Of a stretch of DNA of 30,637 bases, positions 6,134-13,144 are shown piece after piece. Location of the stretch: positions 1 through 30,637 of IMG/VR virus record IMGVR_UViG_3300045825_000051; one strand, written 5' to 3'. The stretch's first letter is position 1, and every line of letters begins with the position of its first letter. The position numbers and the translations under genes are program-made. This stretch comes from a virus. The notes under the pieces are model-generated. The model was given only the letters and a program-made list of their open reading frames with translations, was not told where the DNA came from and searched no databases.

Positions 6134-6154
6134 AAGAACAACGTAAACGGGTGA

Positions 6155-6163
6155 ATTATAACA
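6155..6163 (-). promoter_or_regulatory. Possible leftward extended -10 promoter
   Basis: The minus strand reads TGTTATAAT (TG-N-TATAAT) over the primase start. Nearly the same block, with the shared plus-strand sequence GGGTGAATTATA-N-CATGA, is found at 21380-21397, where it serves as the apparent promoter of the antisense HNH gene. No -35 is visible. A transcript from here would meet the leftward hairpin within about 50 nt. Confidence 0.35.
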
Positions 6164-8490
6164 TGAAAATCGCTATTGGAAGTAACGAAACAAGCAGCGC
6201 AATAATACATAAAGACGTAACTTGGCAGCAGATTGTTAAAAAGTACACAACTCATAAAGTAACCTCTAAAAAAGGTGGTGAATACGTTATTGGCGGTGAG
6301 TACAGCGGAAGCGTTCGACGCGAAGAGTTTATGATTGGTCGGTCATTATTGGTGGTTGATATTGATAGCTATCAAGGAGGTATCGACAATCTCGCATTTG
6401 ACTTGTCAATGTTGCCATTCGGTTTTGTCGCGTATTCATCATATAGCCATACATCAGCAAATCCCCGCATTCGCGTTATCGCACAACTATCGCGCATGGT
6501 TACACCGGACGAATATCGTATCATTTCACGCGATATTTGCGCGCAGATGCTTGTACCAATGTCTGCGATAGACGAATGCTCATTTGTACCTAATCAGGCA
6601 ATGTTCGCTCCGCAGCATCCAAAGGGTGGGGAGTTCTGGACAATGGTACAAGACGGTTGTGCTGTTTGTGTACCCAACTCCATTATGTCGCCCGCTGTAC
6701 GCGAGTCTGACGATTTTTGTGTAATGGTTGCATCACAACCATTAGATTTATCGGATATACAGGTTGCTGCGTATTTGGCGGCGTATAACCCTATTGGGTT
6801 AGATTACGATTCTTGGCTGCGTGTCGGAATGGCGGTATGTCATCAGTATAGCGGTGCTTTGACTGGCTTTGATATGTGGGTTGAGTGGTCAAAGCAGGAC
6901 ACAGAAAAGTTTGATTTGAGCGTAATGAGTAGAAAGTGGAAGTCTTTTGGCGGTTCGTCTAATCCGGTTACGATGGCATCCATCATTCAGCATATCAACT
7001 TATCAGGCGCGGTTGTTTCAACTTCTGGAACTTCAGGCGGATGGCTTGAGCAAATTGCAAATTGCGAAGACAAACACGCGTTAGAGCAGCTAATTCAGCA
7101 TGAAATTGCGCGAGATAAATCAATTGGTACGGTAGACCTTGCAGATTTAGAAAGTGCGGTTAAATTGCGCTTCGCCGAGTTTGGTGTAGTGCTTCGCGCA
7201 GACCCATTACGCAAATTATTTAAACCTAAACAAATGCGAGCATTCCCTGATATTGGGGGTGGGGAAACCCCACTCGAAACTATGGATAACCTTCGCGTGG
7301 TTTGTGATAACAATGACATTGTTATTAGGTACAACATGATTAAGAAAGATGACGAGATACTGATAAAGGACACGCAGTGGTCAATTGATAATTCAAAAAA
7401 TGCGTCAATAACCTGGTTGCGCTCGGCGTGTCACAAAGTTGAGATGCGCACAACTAACCTTAAAAACTTTGTAACCCTACTGGCAGATGGCAATCAGTTT
7501 AACCCTGTGGTCGAGTGGGTGAATAGCCGTGAATGGGATGGGGTTAGCCGTCTAAACGACCTATACGCGACGATCACCGAAAACAAAGACCTATGCAGCC
7601 GTGAACTAAAGGAGACGGTTGTACTGCGCTGGATGGTCGGTGCAATCGCTGCGGCGTTTAGTCCAGTGGGGGTTATGGTTCGCGGCGTATTGGTTTTTCA
7701 AGGTGAGCAGTACACAGGAAAAACACGATGGATTGAAGCACTCGCCCCTAAGGAGCTAGACTTGATTAAAACAGGTAGATCATTAGTTGTGCATGATAAA
7801 GATAGCGTAAAGCAAATTTTATCATCATGGATTTCGGAATTGGGCGAGCTGGATGCGACATTCAAAAAATCAGATATTGCCGCGCTGAAAGCGTTTATCA
7901 CTTCCGACATGGACGAATTGCGCAGGCCATACGCAGCGGCAGAGAGCCAATACGCCAGGCGCACTGTATTCGCGGCGTCTGTTAACGATTCTAAATTCCT
8001 CCAGGATGATACCGGCAACAGTCGTTTTATGGTTATCCCTATAATCGCTCTAAATCATGCGCATACGTTAGATATGCAGCAAGTATGGGCGGAAATATAT
8101 GTACTGTGGAAAAGTGGCGAAAAGCATTATTTGAGCGCGGATGAAATGGCAGCATTAAATTCACATAACGAAAACTTTACGGCTACCGACCCAATATTTG
8201 AAATGATTGCGAGTCATCTCAATTGGGAGTCTTTTTCACAGACAACCTGTAAATGGATGCAAGTCTCTGACGTTTTGCGCTGGATTGGTAAAGATAATCC
8301 GTCGAGGTTTGAGTCAATTTCGGCAGGTAAGGCAATCAAAAAAATTAACGGTGGAATTATTCGCAAGTCTCACGGTAAGCAACTTGTTGCTGTTCCCGAC
8401 GCGAAAAATGATTCGCTTTTATCTGAATTCGATAAAAGCAACCATGGGGGTAATAGGTTTGATTACCCCGAAGACCATATACCCTTTTAA
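6163..8490 (+). CDS. Primase-helicase (AEP-like / PriCT / VapE type)
   Basis: A 775-residue multidomain replication protein. The N-terminal part looks like an archaeo-eukaryotic-type primase: LLVVDIDSY (D66, D68), then SYSHTSANPRIRVI (H96, R102). A PriCT-like domain follows (about 195-275, with DYDSWLRVGMAVCHQYSG). The C-terminal half is a VapE/SF3-type ATPase: WDGVSRLNDL, Walker A GEQYTGKT (514-521), and SSWISELGELD as the Walker B region. It should prime and unwind at the phage origin. I prefer the ATG at 6163 to the GTG at 6151 because GGGTGA gives it a ribosome site and the GTG has none. The repeat-rich candidate origin begins inside its last codons. Confidence 0.88.
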   Translation: MKIAIGSNETSSAIIHKDVTWQQIVKKYTTHKVTSKKGGEYVIGGEYSGSVRREEFMIGRSLLVVDIDSYQGGIDNLAFDLSMLPFGFVAYSSYSHTSANPRIRVIAQLSRMVTPDEYRIISRDICAQMLVPMSAIDECSFVPNQAMFAPQHPKGGEFWTMVQDGCAVCVPNSIMSPAVRESDDFCVMVASQPLDLSDIQVAAYLAAYNPIGLDYDSWLRVGMAVCHQYSGALTGFDMWVEWSKQDTEKFDLSVMSRKWKSFGGSSNPVTMASIIQHINLSGAVVSTSGTSGGWLEQIANCEDKHALEQLIQHEIARDKSIGTVDLADLESAVKLRFAEFGVVLRADPLRKLFKPKQMRAFPDIGGGETPLETMDNLRVVCDNNDIVIRYNMIKKDDEILIKDTQWSIDNSKNASITWLRSACHKVEMRTTNLKNFVTLLADGNQFNPVVEWVNSREWDGVSRLNDLYATITENKDLCSRELKETVVLRWMVGAIAAAFSPVGVMVRGVLVFQGEQYTGKTRWIEALAPKELDLIKTGRSLVVHDKDSVKQILSSWISELGELDATFKKSDIAALKAFITSDMDELRRPYAAAESQYARRTVFAASVNDSKFLQDDTGNSRFMVIPIIALNHAHTLDMQQVWAEIYVLWKSGEKHYLSADEMAALNSHNENFTATDPIFEMIASHLNWESFSQTTCKWMQVSDVLRWIGKDNPSRFESISAGKAIKKINGGIIRKSHGKQLVAVPDAKNDSLLSEFDKSNHGGNRFDYPEDHIPF

Positions 8491-9201: not shown

Positions 9202-9378
9202 ATGACAAAAGAAGAATTTAAGGAAGCGCGTGATAAACTCGGGTGGGATGTTTACGAGGCTGGAAAAAAGCTAGGCGTGACATTCGGGATGATCTACAAA
9301 TACCAGTCCGGAGAGTGTGCTATCAGCAAAACGGTTGAAATACTCATATCTAAATCTTTGAAGGAGATAGCAAAATGA
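9202..9378 (+). CDS. XRE-family helix-turn-helix regulator
   Basis: A 58-residue protein, MTKEEFKEARDKLGWDVYEA and onward, with a helix-turn-helix at about 14-45: LGWDVYEAGKKLGVTFGMIY followed by KYQSGECAISKTVEILI. It is a minimal one-domain XRE/Cro-type DNA-binding protein. I use the ATG at 9202, which has GAGGTG about 4 nt upstream, rather than an upstream non-ATG start. It has its own extended -10 promoter and overlaps the ParB-like gene by 4 nt (ATGA). It is a candidate ligand for the TATAG-N3-CTATA palindromes at 330 and 8783, untested. Confidence 0.8.
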   Translation: MTKEEFKEARDKLGWDVYEAGKKLGVTFGMIYKYQSGECAISKTVEILISKSLKEIAK

Positions 9379-10097
9379 GAATTGAAATGGTTGATGTAAC
9401 GCGAATCAAGTTTGATCCGGCATACCAGCGTCCGCTTGATCTTAATCGCGTTTCGCGTATTGCCAAGAACTTCAAGGAAGGAGCTGCAAAGGCTGTATCA
9501 CTGTCCGAGCGTGCCAATGGTGACTTGTTTAACTATGACGGCAATCACACGGTTCATGCTTGTATTTCAATTGGTATGACGTACGTTCCGGCTGTGATCG
9601 TATCAGGTTCTCAAGCGCAGGAAGCGGAGTGGTTTAACGCCATTCAGGAGGGGAGTAAGCGATTGATGGTTCGTGATCGGCAGCGGGCAGGGGTGATGTT
9701 CAATGATGAAATTGCATGCCGTGCAAAAAACGTGTTGGATAAGTACGGTCTGCAAATTTCAACAGGCAGCACTCATGCGCATAAAACTGGAGCGATCGGT
9801 GCAATTCGCACTTATGCAAAGCAGGATTATCCATCATTGATTCTGGCGATGGATGCGATTCAGTCGCTATGGATTGACGATGAATGCGCATGGACTGGTG
9901 TAGTTATTCGCGGGATGTATGAGATAGCTAAATCTGGAAAAATTAATGATGTTTTGAAAATGGCAAAAACCAAAAAGATCACGCCGCGTAGGATATTGGA
10001 CACGGCGGCGGCAATGCAAGAATCAAAAGGAACATCTGGAAGCGGAGCGGGGGCGGCAAAGCGCGCAATTTATAAATTATGTGGGATTGAAAAATGA
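9375..10097 (+). CDS. ParB/sulfiredoxin-fold protein (DUF6551-like)
   Basis: A 240-residue protein whose N-terminal 80 residues match the ParB N-terminal fold: IKFDPAYQRPLDLNRVSRIA, then the SLSERANGDL strand and YDGNHTVHA, the counterpart of the ParB nucleotide-binding DGQHR box. Here the usual arginine after the histidine is a threonine (T59). The rest (about 85-240) is helical and ends in a Gly/Ala-rich tail. Phage proteins of this kind occur beside DNA-modification and terminase genes, and members of the wider fold bind CTP or act as nucleases. Catalysis cannot be assigned. It overlaps its neighbours by 4 nt on both sides, so it belongs to the XRE-methyltransferase operon. Confidence 0.75.
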   Translation: MRIEMVDVTRIKFDPAYQRPLDLNRVSRIAKNFKEGAAKAVSLSERANGDLFNYDGNHTVHACISIGMTYVPAVIVSGSQAQEAEWFNAIQEGSKRLMVRDRQRAGVMFNDEIACRAKNVLDKYGLQISTGSTHAHKTGAIGAIRTYAKQDYPSLILAMDAIQSLWIDDECAWTGVVIRGMYEIAKSGKINDVLKMAKTKKITPRRILDTAAAMQESKGTSGSGAGAAKRAIYKLCGIEK

Positions 10098-10291
10098 GCG
10101 TATTACAACAGCTTAAAACCCTGCGAGATCGGCGCATAACTGAATTGAAAAAAACTGAGGTTGTTCCTGGTTTTTTCTGGATTGGAAAAGACGATCAATC
10201 ATCCCAGCGGATTAAAATTGAAATCGCCCGGTACAACGAGCAGATACGCCGGATTGAATCGGGTGGTGAGTATTGTAGGAGGGCGGCGTGA
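10094..10291 (+). CDS. Small hypothetical protein upstream of methyltransferase
   Basis: A 65-residue basic protein beginning MSVLQQLKTLRDRRITELKK and ending in CRRAA. Two helices rich in Arg/Lys and Gln (about 1-20 and 35-55) flank VVPGFFWIGKD. It overlaps the ParB-like gene (ATGA) and the methyltransferase (GTGA). A strong AGGAGG near its end (10277-10282) serves the next gene. No family recognised; a small coiled or nucleic-acid-binding protein is possible. Confidence 0.65.
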   Translation: MSVLQQLKTLRDRRITELKKTEVVPGFFWIGKDDQSSQRIKIEIARYNEQIRRIESGGEYCRRAA

Positions 10292-11025
10292 ATGAGCTGG
10301 CACTTTTTGCAGGGGGGGGAGGTAGCGTGTTGGCCGCAGGATTGCTTGGATGGCGCACCGTCTGCGCTGTTGAAATTGATTCCGGAGCAAGAGGAATCAT
10401 GCTCGACCGCCAGAGAGACAGAGTTATCGAGCAATTCCCTATCTGGGATGATATCAGGACATTCGACGGTAAGCCATGGCGCGGACACGTTGATGTTATC
10501 ACCGGCGGATTCCCATGCCAGGACATTAGTCAATGCGGAAAAGGCGAAGGTCTTGACGGCGCTAGATCAGGATTGTGGAGCGAACAAAAACGAGTCATTT
10601 GCGAAGTTAAGCCACGACTCGTTGTTGTGGAAAACAGCCCAATGCTCACTGTTCGAGGACTTGGAGTTGTCCTTAGAGACTTGGCCGGAATGGGGTTTGA
10701 TGTCCGGTGGGGAGTGTTTCGAGCTTCGACCATTGGAGCGGCACACCATCGAGCGCGGATTTTCCTACTTGCTTACACCGACAGCGCAATCTTGGAAAGC
10801 ATGGACATTCCGAAACCCGCTTGCATTGATACGAAAAAATCACGCAGACGGCAATCTGCAAGAGCAATTGATGCGGCTCTACCAGCGGATGACTACGCCG
10901 CGATGCCAAGAGATTCTGATGATGTGGCCAGAGGGATGGACGGACTCAAAGCCACTGGCAATGGATGGGTTCCTGCAATGGCAGCGGGAGCAGTTTATCA
11001 ATTGTGCAAAGGAATAGCAGCATGA
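10288..11025 (+). CDS. DNA (cytosine-5) methyltransferase, compact
   Basis: A 245-residue m5C methyltransferase. Motif I (LALFAGGGGS with AVEID), motif IV with the catalytic cysteine (GGFPCQDIS, C77), motif VI ENS (115-117), motif VIII HHRARIF (153-159) and motif X-like TGNGWVP (223-229) are present in order. Only about 60 residues lie between motif VIII and the end motif, so the target-recognition region is unusually short. Cognate restriction enzymes are not visible; a solo phage methyltransferase usually protects phage DNA from host restriction. The start is GTG at 10288, 5 nt after AGGAGG. The stop overlaps the next gene (ATGA). Nearly the whole gene is overlapped by a second open frame (10292-11017). 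Confidence 0.9.
   Translation: MNELALFAGGGGSVLAAGLLGWRTVCAVEIDSGARGIMLDRQRDRVIEQFPIWDDIRTFDGKPWRGHVDVITGGFPCQDISQCGKGEGLDGARSGLWSEQKRVICEVKPRLVVVENSPMLTVRGLGVVLRDLAGMGFDVRWGVFRASTIGAAHHRARIFLLAYTDSAILESMDIPKPACIDTKKSRRRQSARAIDAALPADDYAAMPRDSDDVARGMDGLKATGNGWVPAMAAGAVYQLCKGIAA
10292..11017 (+). CDS. Overlapping open frame nested in the methyltransferase (+1 frame)
   Basis: A 241-codon ATG-to-TAG frame lies entirely within the methyltransferase gene, shifted by +1. The same AGGAGG (10277-10282) sits 9 nt before its ATG. The product has protein-like segments: SPADSHARTL (70-79, opposite the catalytic GGFPCQD), SFAKLSHDSLLWKTAQCSLF (102-121), ETWPEWGLMSGGECFEL (129-145), LTPTAQSW (161-168) and WPEGWTDSKPLAMDGFLQWQ (212-231, opposite motif X). 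From memory, annotated phage and prophage proteins carry SHARTS, WKTSQ, ETWPRWGMMRNGE and GWTDLKPLATDKF patterns of this kind; I cannot verify that here. It may be a genuine second protein or a frame kept open by methyltransferase codon constraints. Confidence 0.5.
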   Translation: MSWHFLQGGEVACWPQDCLDGAPSALLKLIPEQEESCSTARETELSSNSLSGMISGHSTVSHGADTLMLSPADSHARTLVNAEKAKVLTALDQDCGANKNESFAKLSHDSLLWKTAQCSLFEDLELSLETWPEWGLMSGGECFELRPLERHTIERGFSYLLTPTAQSWKAWTFRNPLALIRKNHADGNLQEQLMRLYQRMTTPRCQEILMMWPEGWTDSKPLAMDGFLQWQREQFINCAKE

Positions 11026-11225: not shown

Positions 11226-11419
11226 GCGACTGTTGCGATGATTCACAATCCGCTGAAGATTTGATGTTAAAATCAGCTCTAAGCGTTAGACAACCTCATC
11301 TGAGGTCGGTAGGAGCGTGCTATAACTGCGGCGATGAATGTCACGGATGCTTCTGCTCCGCTGAATGTGGAAATGACTGGGAGGTCAGAGCAATGGCGCG
11401 TACACGAAATGGAAGCTAA
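11222..11419 (+). CDS. Cys-rich zinc-ribbon protein, 65 residues
   Basis: The C-terminal half holds CYNCGDECHGCFCSAECGND (33-52), with several Cys-x2-Cys or Cys-x3-Cys pairs typical of small zinc ribbons. The N-terminal half (SDCCDDSQSAEDLMLKSALS) is acidic and helical. Phage TraR/DksA-like or DUF2116-like ribbons have a similar layout, but the match is not good enough to name. An AGGAGG-like site (AGGAGGTGG) lies just upstream of the ATG at 11222. The 3' end overlaps the start region of the small terminase gene. Confidence 0.65.
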   Translation: MSDCCDDSQSAEDLMLKSALSVRQPHLRSVGACYNCGDECHGCFCSAECGNDWEVRAMARTRNGS

Positions 11420-11831
11420 ACCACTAACTCCAAAGCAGGAGAAATTCGCGCAAGGCGTAGCGTCTGGTATGAGTCAGGCGGATGCTTATCGGGCTGCTTT
11501 CAGTTGTGCAAATTCGTTGCCTGCGACGATACAAAATAAAGCCAGCGCAATGATGAGGCGGGGCGAGGTGCGGGCTAGGGTTGATGAGCTACGCAAGCCA
11601 GCCATTGCAGCTATCGCTATAACCGTTCAGGACTTGATTAGAGAGCTTGAAGAGGCACGAGTGATAGCTATGGCAGGAGAAAAGCCACAAGCGTCTGCAA
11701 TGGTTGCTGCAACGGTTGCAAAGGCTAAACTGTTAGGGCTTGAGGCCCCTACTAAATCTGAGATAGCTGGTTCATTTGAGGTTATTGCCCCTTGGCTCAA
11801 GTCAAATATACAAGACCGCAATCAGGGATAA
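11409..11831 (+). CDS. Terminase small subunit
   Basis: About 140 residues beginning MEAKPLTPKQEKFAQGVASG. The pattern LTPKQEKFAQGVASGMSQADAYRAAF is the N-terminal helix-turn-helix region of phage small terminases, which bind the packaging site and recruit the large subunit. ASAMMRRGEVRARVDELRK follows as the usual second helical segment, and the C-terminal part (about 75-140) should drive oligomerisation. The gene directly precedes the large subunit and overlaps it by 40 nt. The start is uncertain: ATG 11409 fits family length, but its ribosome site is weak; an in-frame ATG at 11373 with GTGGAA upstream is an alternative. Confidence 0.85.
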   Translation: MEAKPLTPKQEKFAQGVASGMSQADAYRAAFSCANSLPATIQNKASAMMRRGEVRARVDELRKPAIAAIAITVQDLIRELEEARVIAMAGEKPQASAMVAATVAKAKLLGLEAPTKSEIAGSFEVIAPWLKSNIQDRNQG

Positions 11832-13144
11832 ACTCTTACGAGCCTCGCGGGGCTTTTAAGTCATTCCACAATCGCCCTAACCGATGGGCGGTTCTTGTTT
11901 GCCATCGAAGAGCAGGAAAGACTGTTGCCTGTGTTGCTGATCTCGTTTTCTCAGCTCTATTCACACAAAAGAAAGATGCGCGATTCGCGTACATCGCACC
12001 GCTATACAACCAAGCGAAGGACGTAGCGTGGTTGTATATCAAGATGCTCACGTCTGACATTCCAGGTATCGAATACAATGAATCAGAGCTACGCGCAGAC
12101 TTCAAAAACGGTGCGCGCATTCGCCTATACGGGGCTGACAATCCTGACCGTCTGCGCGGATTGTATCTCGATGGTATCGTGCTTGATGAATATGCGGACA
12201 TGACGCCGCGCATGTGGGGGGAAGTTGTGCGCCCTGCGCTATCTGACCGCAAAGGCTGGGCTGTGTTTATTGGCACACCGAAAGGACATAACTCATTCTA
12301 TGACCTGTGGCAGAGAACTGTTGATGTGCCTGAGTGGTATAGGCTTATGCTGAAGGCCAGCACATCAGAACTGATTGACCGTGCAGAACTAGCTGCTGCA
12401 AAGTGCGAAATGACGGATGACCAGTACGACCAGGAATATGAATGCTCATTCCAAGCCGCTATCCAAGGCGCGTATTACGGAAAAGAGATTAACGCTTGTG
12501 AGATTGAAGGGCGTATAACTTCGGTTGCATACGATCAGGAACTGAAAGTCTACGCATCATTCGATATTGGATGGAGCGACGACACGTCTATCTGGTGGTG
12601 GCAAATGGTCGGTGGCGAGATTCACATAATCAATCATTTTTCATCAAATGGCGAAAATGTGCAGTTTTATGTGGAAAAGCTGCTAGAATTCGGGTATAAA
12701 TATGCACAATTTGGAAACAAGCCTTTTATCTGGTTGCCGCATGATGCTAGAGCACAGACGTTGGCAGCAGCAGGAAAATCAGTACAGCAGCAGTTTTTAG
12801 AGGGCGGCTTTGCATCTAGAATCGTGCCTAGCTTGAGTTTGCAAGATGGAATACAGGCGGTTCGTAAGACGTTGCCCAAGTGCTGGTTTGACCGTGATAA
12901 CTGCGCAGACGGCATTAACGCATTATCGCTGTATCGCAGAGAGTTTGACGAAGATAGAAAAGTATTCAGAGATAAGCCATTGCATGACTGGACTTCTCAT
13001 GCTGCAGACTCGTTTAGAATGTTGGCAGTAGCATGGCAGGAAGATTACAAGCCGCTTCCTAAACCTGAGGCAAAGTTTCCACTGGAGCGCACCTTTGCCG
13101 AAATGGTTAAGGCTCAACGAGCAAAAAGATTAAGCGAAGAATAA
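11792..13144 (+). CDS. Terminase large subunit
   Basis: A 450-residue DNA-packaging motor and nuclease. ATPase motifs: Walker A HRRAGKT (38-44), Walker B GIVLDEYADM (128-137, D132 E133) and coupling motif FIGTP (159-163). RNase H-like nuclease acidic residues: D258 (ASFDIGWSDD), D318 (WLPHDA) and D406 (HDWTSHAADSFR). The start appears to be TTG at 11792 with GAGG about 10 nt upstream, since no ATG precedes the Walker A site. This gives a 40-nt overlap with the small subunit. It cuts concatemeric DNA and pumps it into the prohead through the portal encoded next. Confidence 0.95.
   Translation: MAQVKYTRPQSGINSYEPRGAFKSFHNRPNRWAVLVCHRRAGKTVACVADLVFSALFTQKKDARFAYIAPLYNQAKDVAWLYIKMLTSDIPGIEYNESELRADFKNGARIRLYGADNPDRLRGLYLDGIVLDEYADMTPRMWGEVVRPALSDRKGWAVFIGTPKGHNSFYDLWQRTVDVPEWYRLMLKASTSELIDRAELAAAKCEMTDDQYDQEYECSFQAAIQGAYYGKEINACEIEGRITSVAYDQELKVYASFDIGWSDDTSIWWWQMVGGEIHIINHFSSNGENVQFYVEKLLEFGYKYAQFGNKPFIWLPHDARAQTLAAAGKSVQQQFLEGGFASRIVPSLSLQDGIQAVRKTLPKCWFDRDNCADGINALSLYRREFDEDRKVFRDKPLHDWTSHAADSFRMLAVAWQEDYKPLPKPEAKFPLERTFAEMVKAQRAKRLSEE

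Follow-up and report, generated by a model that had tools for sequence, protein, structure and literature searches.

A phage C5 cytosine methyltransferase locus that very probably encodes one enzyme as two polypeptides in overlapping reading frames

The 30,637-nucleotide virus record IMGVR_UViG_3300045825_000051 (the window, which comprises the whole stretch analysed) carries a gene for a C5 cytosine methyltransferase that is overlapped almost completely by a second open reading frame on the same strand. The locus very probably specifies one methyltransferase as two polypeptides read from two frames of the same DNA: a catalytic subunit (here MT; 245 amino acids, GTG start, 10288..11025, plus strand) with C5 motifs I-VIII and X, and a putative specificity subunit (here ALT; 241 amino acids, ATG start, 10292..11017, plus strand) in the +1 frame. 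An earlier sequence-only reading had pointed to this 241-codon ATG-to-stop frame, running +1 to MT over about 98% of its length, and the frame and its extent (98.4% of the MT gene) are borne out. The same holds for the ribosome-binding site, a single AGGAGG (10277..10282, plus strand) that is common to both starts, 5 nt from the GTG and 9 nt from the ATG, the latter lying 4 nt after the former. The ALT peptides quoted in that reading are likewise present in the translation. Its proposal that the locus yields two unrelated proteins, a methyltransferase and a partner, stands in part: selection on both frames favours two proteins, but ALT appears to be the specificity half of the same enzyme and not an unrelated product.

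Both frames show conservation and purifying selection

As the sequence-only reading recognized, the chance of an open frame has to be judged with the codons of the gene itself. When synonymous codons of the window MT are shuffled, the +1 frame remains open in 54 of 20,000 shuffles (mean 4.0 stops, P ~0.003), and for the window gene alone a chance origin of the open frame is thus unlikely yet not impossible. The strong evidence is comparative. Viral homologues were gathered as 24 loci fetched by an ALT query and then the best 80 by an MT query, the second set being free of selection for ALT because MT was used to fetch it; loci whose MT frame is broken, short or truncated are left out of the stop counts, as are near-duplicates (90%). 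Among 67 non-redundant genes of 77 (the window and 66 MT-found genes), 2 stops are found in the +1 frame where 345 are expected, and 66 of the 67 have no internal +1 stop at all, against an expectation of 0.2 such genes; the +2 frame of the same set has 932 stops against 828 expected. When genes from both queries are pooled (75 genes), there are 5 stops in the +1 frame (376 expected) and 1034 in the +2 frame (919 expected). Stop avoidance extends over the entire gene, the N-terminal part included, with 0, 0, 0 and 2 stops in successive segments where 46, 84, 103 and 103 are expected (65 genes). The best 80 MT-found loci in bacterial and archaeal assemblies give a similar picture: both frames are open in 73, ALT has stops toward the 3' end in 2, and MT is interrupted in 5.

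Neither the methyltransferase fold nor phage codon usage (as judged from one other gene) explains the open frame, because both controls are at chance. Thirty-nine C5 methyltransferase genes retrieved from bacterial genomes with the Pfam profile have 673 stops in the +1 frame against 687 expected, and even within this set two members (L375 and L378) that belong to the MT/ALT family have 2 stops against 11 expected. In the terminase gene of the window phage and its relatives, 6 of the 11 sequences being non-redundant, 104 stops are counted where 111 are expected. Chance and codon bias are rejected on the basis of these counts in relatives and controls. Third-base conservation is likewise at expectation in the terminase (0.347 vs 0.357) and well above it in MT (0.544 vs 0.309). 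The sequence-only reading had held that frequent +1 stops and unreduced synonymous variation among homologues would speak against the second frame; neither is seen in them.

Conservation also reaches the ALT protein and its start. In 23 MT-found loci that are less than 70% identical, pairwise ALT identity is 0.412, compared with 0.274 (standard deviation 0.002) in codon shuffles that preserve MT, and in 23 of 240 alignment columns the conservation of ALT exceeds that of MT by more than 0.1 (for example, an ALT Met at 96% against an MT Asp at 57%). The ALT start position is ATG in 143 of 159 loci and GTG in 4, and MT codon 2, an Asn, is AAT in 140 of 140 with no AAC, whereas elsewhere in these genes AAC (716) outnumbers AAT (506); the loci in both counts were not thinned for relatedness. 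A Shine-Dalgarno-like sequence lies at most 14 nt upstream in 138 homologous loci, as judged with loose patterns.

Substitutions were counted with a simple in-house version of an overlap-aware method, using 79 independent pairs of window-type genes and 7 pairs of a second type, named for phage K1G, in which ALT starts inside MT. The ALT ratio dNN/dNS is 0.57 (0.51-0.63) for the window type and 0.33 (0.27-0.38) for the K1G type, compared with 0.83 (5 pairs) for the terminase when read in the same way; the overlap-aware check that the sequence-only reading proposed thus agrees with constraint on ALT. A second ratio, dSN/dNS, sets MT-silent, ALT-changing substitutions over MT-changing, ALT-silent ones, and in the terminase, where only frame 0 matters, it is 12.8. 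In the window type, judged from 29 close, full-length pairs hand-picked among the 79, the ratio is 5.4 for codons 8-110, 2.05 for codons 110-165 and 0.47 (0.32-0.60) after motif VIII, so that past motif VIII it is ALT that is the better-kept protein. The K1G type, which is distant from the window type, follows the same course: the ratio is 14.7 upstream of the ALT start, where changes are few and the interval is wide, and it falls to 2.7 and finally to 0.57. Column entropies from 43 sequences locate the exchange of dominance more closely: ALT is the less variable frame at motif IX (1.32 vs 1.76 bits), MT is less variable at motif X (1.11 vs 1.69 bits) and in motifs I-VIII, and over the recognition stretch the two frames are equally variable.

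Parts of the enzyme in the two frames

MT has all of the catalytic motifs expected of a C5 methyltransferase: motif I (FAGGGG, 10306..10323), motif IV with the catalytic PCQ (10513..10521), motif VI (ENS, 10630..10638), motif VIII (HHRAR, 10744..10758) and motif X (GNGWVP, 10957..10974), all on the plus strand. In alignment A2 the PCQ, the E and N of motif VI and the G-N-G of motif X are invariant. A run of eight G residues within motif I (10312-10319) constitutes a slippage-prone tract near both starts. What MT does not have, when compared with the usual C5 enzyme, is a recognition domain and motif IX within the same chain. It matches PF00145 at profile positions 4-182 of 324 only (E 3.9e-29), and it matches single-chain relatives (below) only through motif VIII (E 1e-37), as it does the canonical enzymes.

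The region between motifs VIII and X is a poorly conserved linker in the MT frame. In the ALT frame (plus strand) it holds a recognition-like region (10769..10885) that begins with LLTPTA, an LPTP-type module, and shows the dSN/dNS of 0.47 given above, followed by a motif IX-like segment, MTTPRCQEILMMWPEGWTDSKP (10886..10954). The consensus of this C-terminal part, NPxWxEWLMGWPxGWTDL, resembles the C5 motif IX that MT lacks. When profiles of the two ALT types are placed on 37 bacterial C5 proteins, they fall at motif IX in 14 and 18 of them where about 1.6 would be expected, a count that leaves out best placements at evident motif IX sequences missed by the locator. A census by a strict pattern finds motif IX solely in the +1 frame in 55 of 80 window-type viral loci, 59 of 80 window-type loci from genomes, 77 of 80 K1G-type loci and 70 of 80 loci related to Paenibacillus phage Diva; solely in the MT frame in 1, 0, 0 and 1; and in both frames in 1, 0, 0 and 3, with 23, 21, 3 and 6 unclassified. 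The same census of the 39 bacterial loci says little (20 on the opposite strand, 14 unclassified, 3 in frame and 2 in +1).

The decisive indication of what ALT is comes from relatives that have the same parts in one chain. In the actinophage proteins Fancypants gp73 and Sanjuju gp4, a single frame encodes motifs I-VIII followed by LPTP modules, a motif IX of the EWMM type and motif X. Alma (gp83/gp82) and Dylan (gp7/gp6) are split: frame 0 stops past motif VIII, and an overlapping +1 open reading frame (ORF) has the LPTP modules, IX and X; Alma gp82 is 38% identical over 171 amino acids to the C-terminal half of Fancypants gp73 (E 3e-26). In Diva (gp49/gp50) a nested +1 ORF has LPTP-like modules and IX, and frame 0 keeps X. 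A profile of 10 single-chain enzymes matches window-type ALT at motif IX (E 4e-8, score 63.7; 27.5-32.7 for 15 codon-shuffled ALT controls) and K1G-type ALT at two recognition modules plus IX (E 2e-7), and the profiles of the two ALT types are themselves related (E 9e-14). Support that is independent of these alignments comes from the PHROG families: MT belongs to phrog_363 (E 1.4e-53) and ALT to phrog_1008 (E 5.9e-14; matched by 104 of 105 ALT proteins at E 0.001), and Fancypants gp73 falls in phrog_363, with phrog_1008 matched by its residues 249-407. Both families bear the label DNA methyltransferase, in keeping with the ALT-like patterns that the sequence-only reading associated with phage proteins labelled methylase. 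From motif content, then, MT lacks and ALT carries the specificity half, and ALT is called a half of the same enzyme because MT is without the recognition region and motif IX and ALT supplies both.

A structure model of one single-chain relative (L452; 9 sequences) is confident at the IX-X end and in much of the catalytic part, residues 71-90 and 115-143 being exceptions; the LPTP stretch (187-304) comes out disordered. The model superimposes on M.HhaI with Z 21.8 and a root mean square deviation of 4.0 over 253 residues, spanning model residues 1-429. In the ALT recognition regions of two loci (L229 and L262), WPTP-type and NYNR-SGDGLAT-type modules recur in varying number, which suggests exchange or several specificities. 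Two other variations were noted. In actinophage loci L449 and L450 the matches to the single-chain enzyme exceed the query in length by several hundred bases, perhaps through an insert as in phage ShiLan, and in Mycobacterium phage Llama (gp74/gp75, locus L439) a C5 methyltransferase is annotated as two genes after a frame change where Spikelee has one gene.

A scheme that would account for these features is as follows. Ribosomes would bind the single site and start at either of the two codons 4 nt apart, so that both subunits are made from one message. MT would contribute S-adenosylmethionine binding and the catalytic Cys (motifs I-VIII and X) and ALT motif IX together with recognition modules of the LPTP type; the subunits would assemble as a heterodimer of M.HhaI-like layout, both being needed for activity, and the assembled enzyme would presumably protect phage DNA against host restriction. 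Selection would pass from frame 0 to +1 after motif VIII and return at motif X, recognition modules may be exchanged in the +1 frame where frame 0 is a tolerant linker, and in the window type the twin starts and near full-length overlap may couple the amounts of the two subunits.

Alternative explanations and points of weakness

Several observations weigh against this two-subunit scheme. The evidence for an ALT product consists of sequence comparisons and models. Pairwise identity is raised in the +2 frame as well (0.374 vs 0.267), because conserved third bases help both frames, and codons 8-110 of ALT are only mildly constrained (dNN/dNS 0.65). No counterpart of the N-terminal third of ALT (10292-10620) is seen in the single-chain enzymes; this third is nevertheless stop-free and started in relatives despite the mild amino-acid constraint. 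The match of the ALT profiles to motif IX of the 37 bacterial enzymes is a weak one (E 0.27 and 0.076). At motif IX of the single-chain profile, shuffling the codons of ALT does not abolish the alignment, though it makes it far weaker, which indicates that the MT frame contributes part of the signal. AlphaFold2 gives no confident fold for ALT alone (predicted local distance difference test score 56, predicted template modelling score 0.27), although a poor fold of the isolated chain might be expected for an enzyme fragment. Among the loci, seven (L085, L090, L216, L228, L238, L244 and L262) have an interrupted MT and an open ALT, which is unexpected for an obligate pair unless these are recent losses; the MT stop of L244 is at the catalytic loop, and relatives of the seven have intact copies. 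In more distant relatives from Porphyromonas, Bacteroides, Sulfitobacter and Stenotrophomonas phages (L108, L110 and L114-L116), the ALT frame is interrupted by stops within its initial 20-40 codons and its later part, with motif IX, is open, so that overlap over the full length characterizes the window type and not every relative.

Could the +1 frame instead be reached by a programmed frameshift? Translation would then start in MT and shift by +1 after motif VIII to give one chain with motifs I-VIII, modules and IX, leaving ALT without a start of its own. Frame dominance does change near motif VIII, and single-chain relatives hold the same order of parts in one frame. There are also loci (L018-L021) whose DNA joins both frames at a G-run, although the junction comes earlier, around MT codon 85. 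The length of that run differs from intact relatives and the MT N-terminus runs into the ALT C-terminus, possibly through slippage, phase variation or an assembly error. A shift after motif VIII does not account for a window-type +1 frame that is free of stops upstream of motif VIII too (none in the segments with 46, 84 and 103 expected), nor for the ALT start codon kept in relatives, and the shifted chain would be without motif X, retained by MT in frame 0. A frameshift is for these reasons improbable.

Slightly less probable still is that ALT is a separate protein, whether a regulator or an anti-restriction or anti-defence factor, that merely overlaps the methyltransferase. Such a protein would fit the N-terminal third, which has no known counterpart, and the seven loci where ALT is open and MT interrupted. 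It would also fit the database searches, as ALT alone has no usable match in Pfam (none at E 1), in NCBIfam or among PDB sequences, and a PADLOC search with ALT gave scattered weak matches only. What it leaves unexplained is that the C-terminal part of ALT matches the specificity half of single-chain methyltransferases, which is exactly what MT lacks. The anti-restriction factor envisaged by the sequence-only reading is disfavoured in the same way, as ALT carries recognition modules and a motif IX that would belong to the same enzyme. A search for ALT apart from MT in 299 genomes did not find it, all 29 matched loci (in 17 genomes) overlapping an MT frame, a result that proves little because the +1 reading of a related MT would match anyway.

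The least credible account is that ALT is never translated and that silent-site and stop conservation reflect RNA or DNA constraint or codon bias. The case for a product is, to be sure, one made from sequence. Yet it is only the +1 frame that avoids stops, the +2 frame having more than expected (932 vs 828), the ALT start codon is kept, constraint follows the ALT codons, and ALT is homologous to a part of a protein that other phages encode in frame. An insertion of the ShiLan type is rejected as well: the report on ShiLan-type genes describes a hidden HNH endonuclease ORF, out of frame within a phage methylase gene (PMC11855218), where the ORF fills an inserted mobile element, whereas ALT spans the methylase itself and its conserved motifs, has no Pfam family at E 1 in the window and has no HNH among its relatives.

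Known two-polypeptide enzymes, distribution and meaning

C5 methyltransferases of two polypeptides are already known. The gene for the small subunit of M.EcoHK31I is nested, in another frame, within the gene for the large subunit, and in this the window locus is alike. As set out in PMC3404938, the M.EcoHK31I large subunit (YGGCCR specificity) has motifs I-VIII and X, with its recognition domain predicted there too, and the small one carries motif IX; M.AquI (CYCGRG) has its catalytic motifs on one polypeptide and the distal recognition part and IX on another. MT resembles the former in having I-VIII and X with motif IX on the other polypeptide. It differs in that the recognition-like modules and their constraint (dSN/dNS 0.47) lie in ALT and not on the large subunit, and in that the two genes overlap almost entirely, their starts being separated by 4 nt. 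With the recognition region seemingly on the other polypeptide, and a comparison made by description only, we would not call the window locus an M.EcoHK31I member. Alma gp83/gp82 and Dylan gp7/gp6 are divided as M.AquI is, with IX and X on the second subunit; in the window, by contrast, motif X is on MT. Fancypants gp73 and Sanjuju gp4 share the motifs, LPTP modules and EWMM-type IX of the window pair, but in a single frame. A literature search, with most subscription papers outside its reach, found no paper on a specificity subunit that is conserved, across phage C5 methyltransferases, in the +1 frame, and there is no mention of an internal gene in the accessible part of PMC6070908. What appears to be new is the near-total overlap, the starts 4 nt apart and the common occurrence of such loci in phages and prophages.

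The overlap is widespread. In the K1G type, 69 of 75 non-redundant genes are without a +1 stop from MT codon 41 to 22 codons before the end, and the remaining 6 have one or two each, in 4 of them only near the 3' end. An ALT query of this type finds 218 phage records, and among the matches listed are N15 gene 58 and the BASEL phages Bas73, Bas74, Bas76 and Bas77. (A pattern-based classification of MT and ALT intactness was set aside, as many genuine motif X sequences escaped the pattern used for them.) In K1G and fTaEco01 both frames have been deposited, as 'C-specific methylase' or 'methyltransferase' and 'Mte8-like protein', and the nested Diva ORF as 'g49 internal gene'. These K1G and Diva pairs are like the window in having a second, +1 ORF, there already annotated by the depositors, and unlike it in that ALT starts inside MT; the deposited names are silent on the role of the second product. 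In most regions that were opened, one frame only is annotated. Two related Vibrio phages, L107 (OP918135) and L112 (MG592600), have opposite frames annotated, MT in one and ALT, as a hypothetical protein, in the other.

The window itself has tailed-phage genes, as identified by profile searches that included PHROGs, and the MT and ALT locus sits between those for a VapE-like primase-helicase (6151-8490) and the small (11334-11831) and large (11792-13144) terminase subunits, with a DUF6551/ParB-like protein (9375-10097) encoded upstream of MT.

Taken jointly, the findings make it likely, with rather less assurance than for the window locus by itself, that there is a large and old class of phage C5 enzymes that are obligate heterodimers, with overprinted halves, handover of selection between frames, module exchange in +1 and coupling through twin starts. 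If this is so, phrog_363 and phrog_1008 would be two halves of a single enzyme, and many phage and prophage cytosine methyltransferases have been annotated without half of the enzyme and may have been cloned and assayed in that incomplete form. Relatives in cultured phages (N15, the BASEL phages and K1 phages) are at hand. Among DNA phages the locus is also a same-strand overlap that is long and widely conserved, and it stands within a natural series that runs from one frame through split and nested forms to almost full overlap. The series makes the origin of an overlapping gene testable, and here that origin would appear to be a domain changing its frame and not the invention of a new protein.
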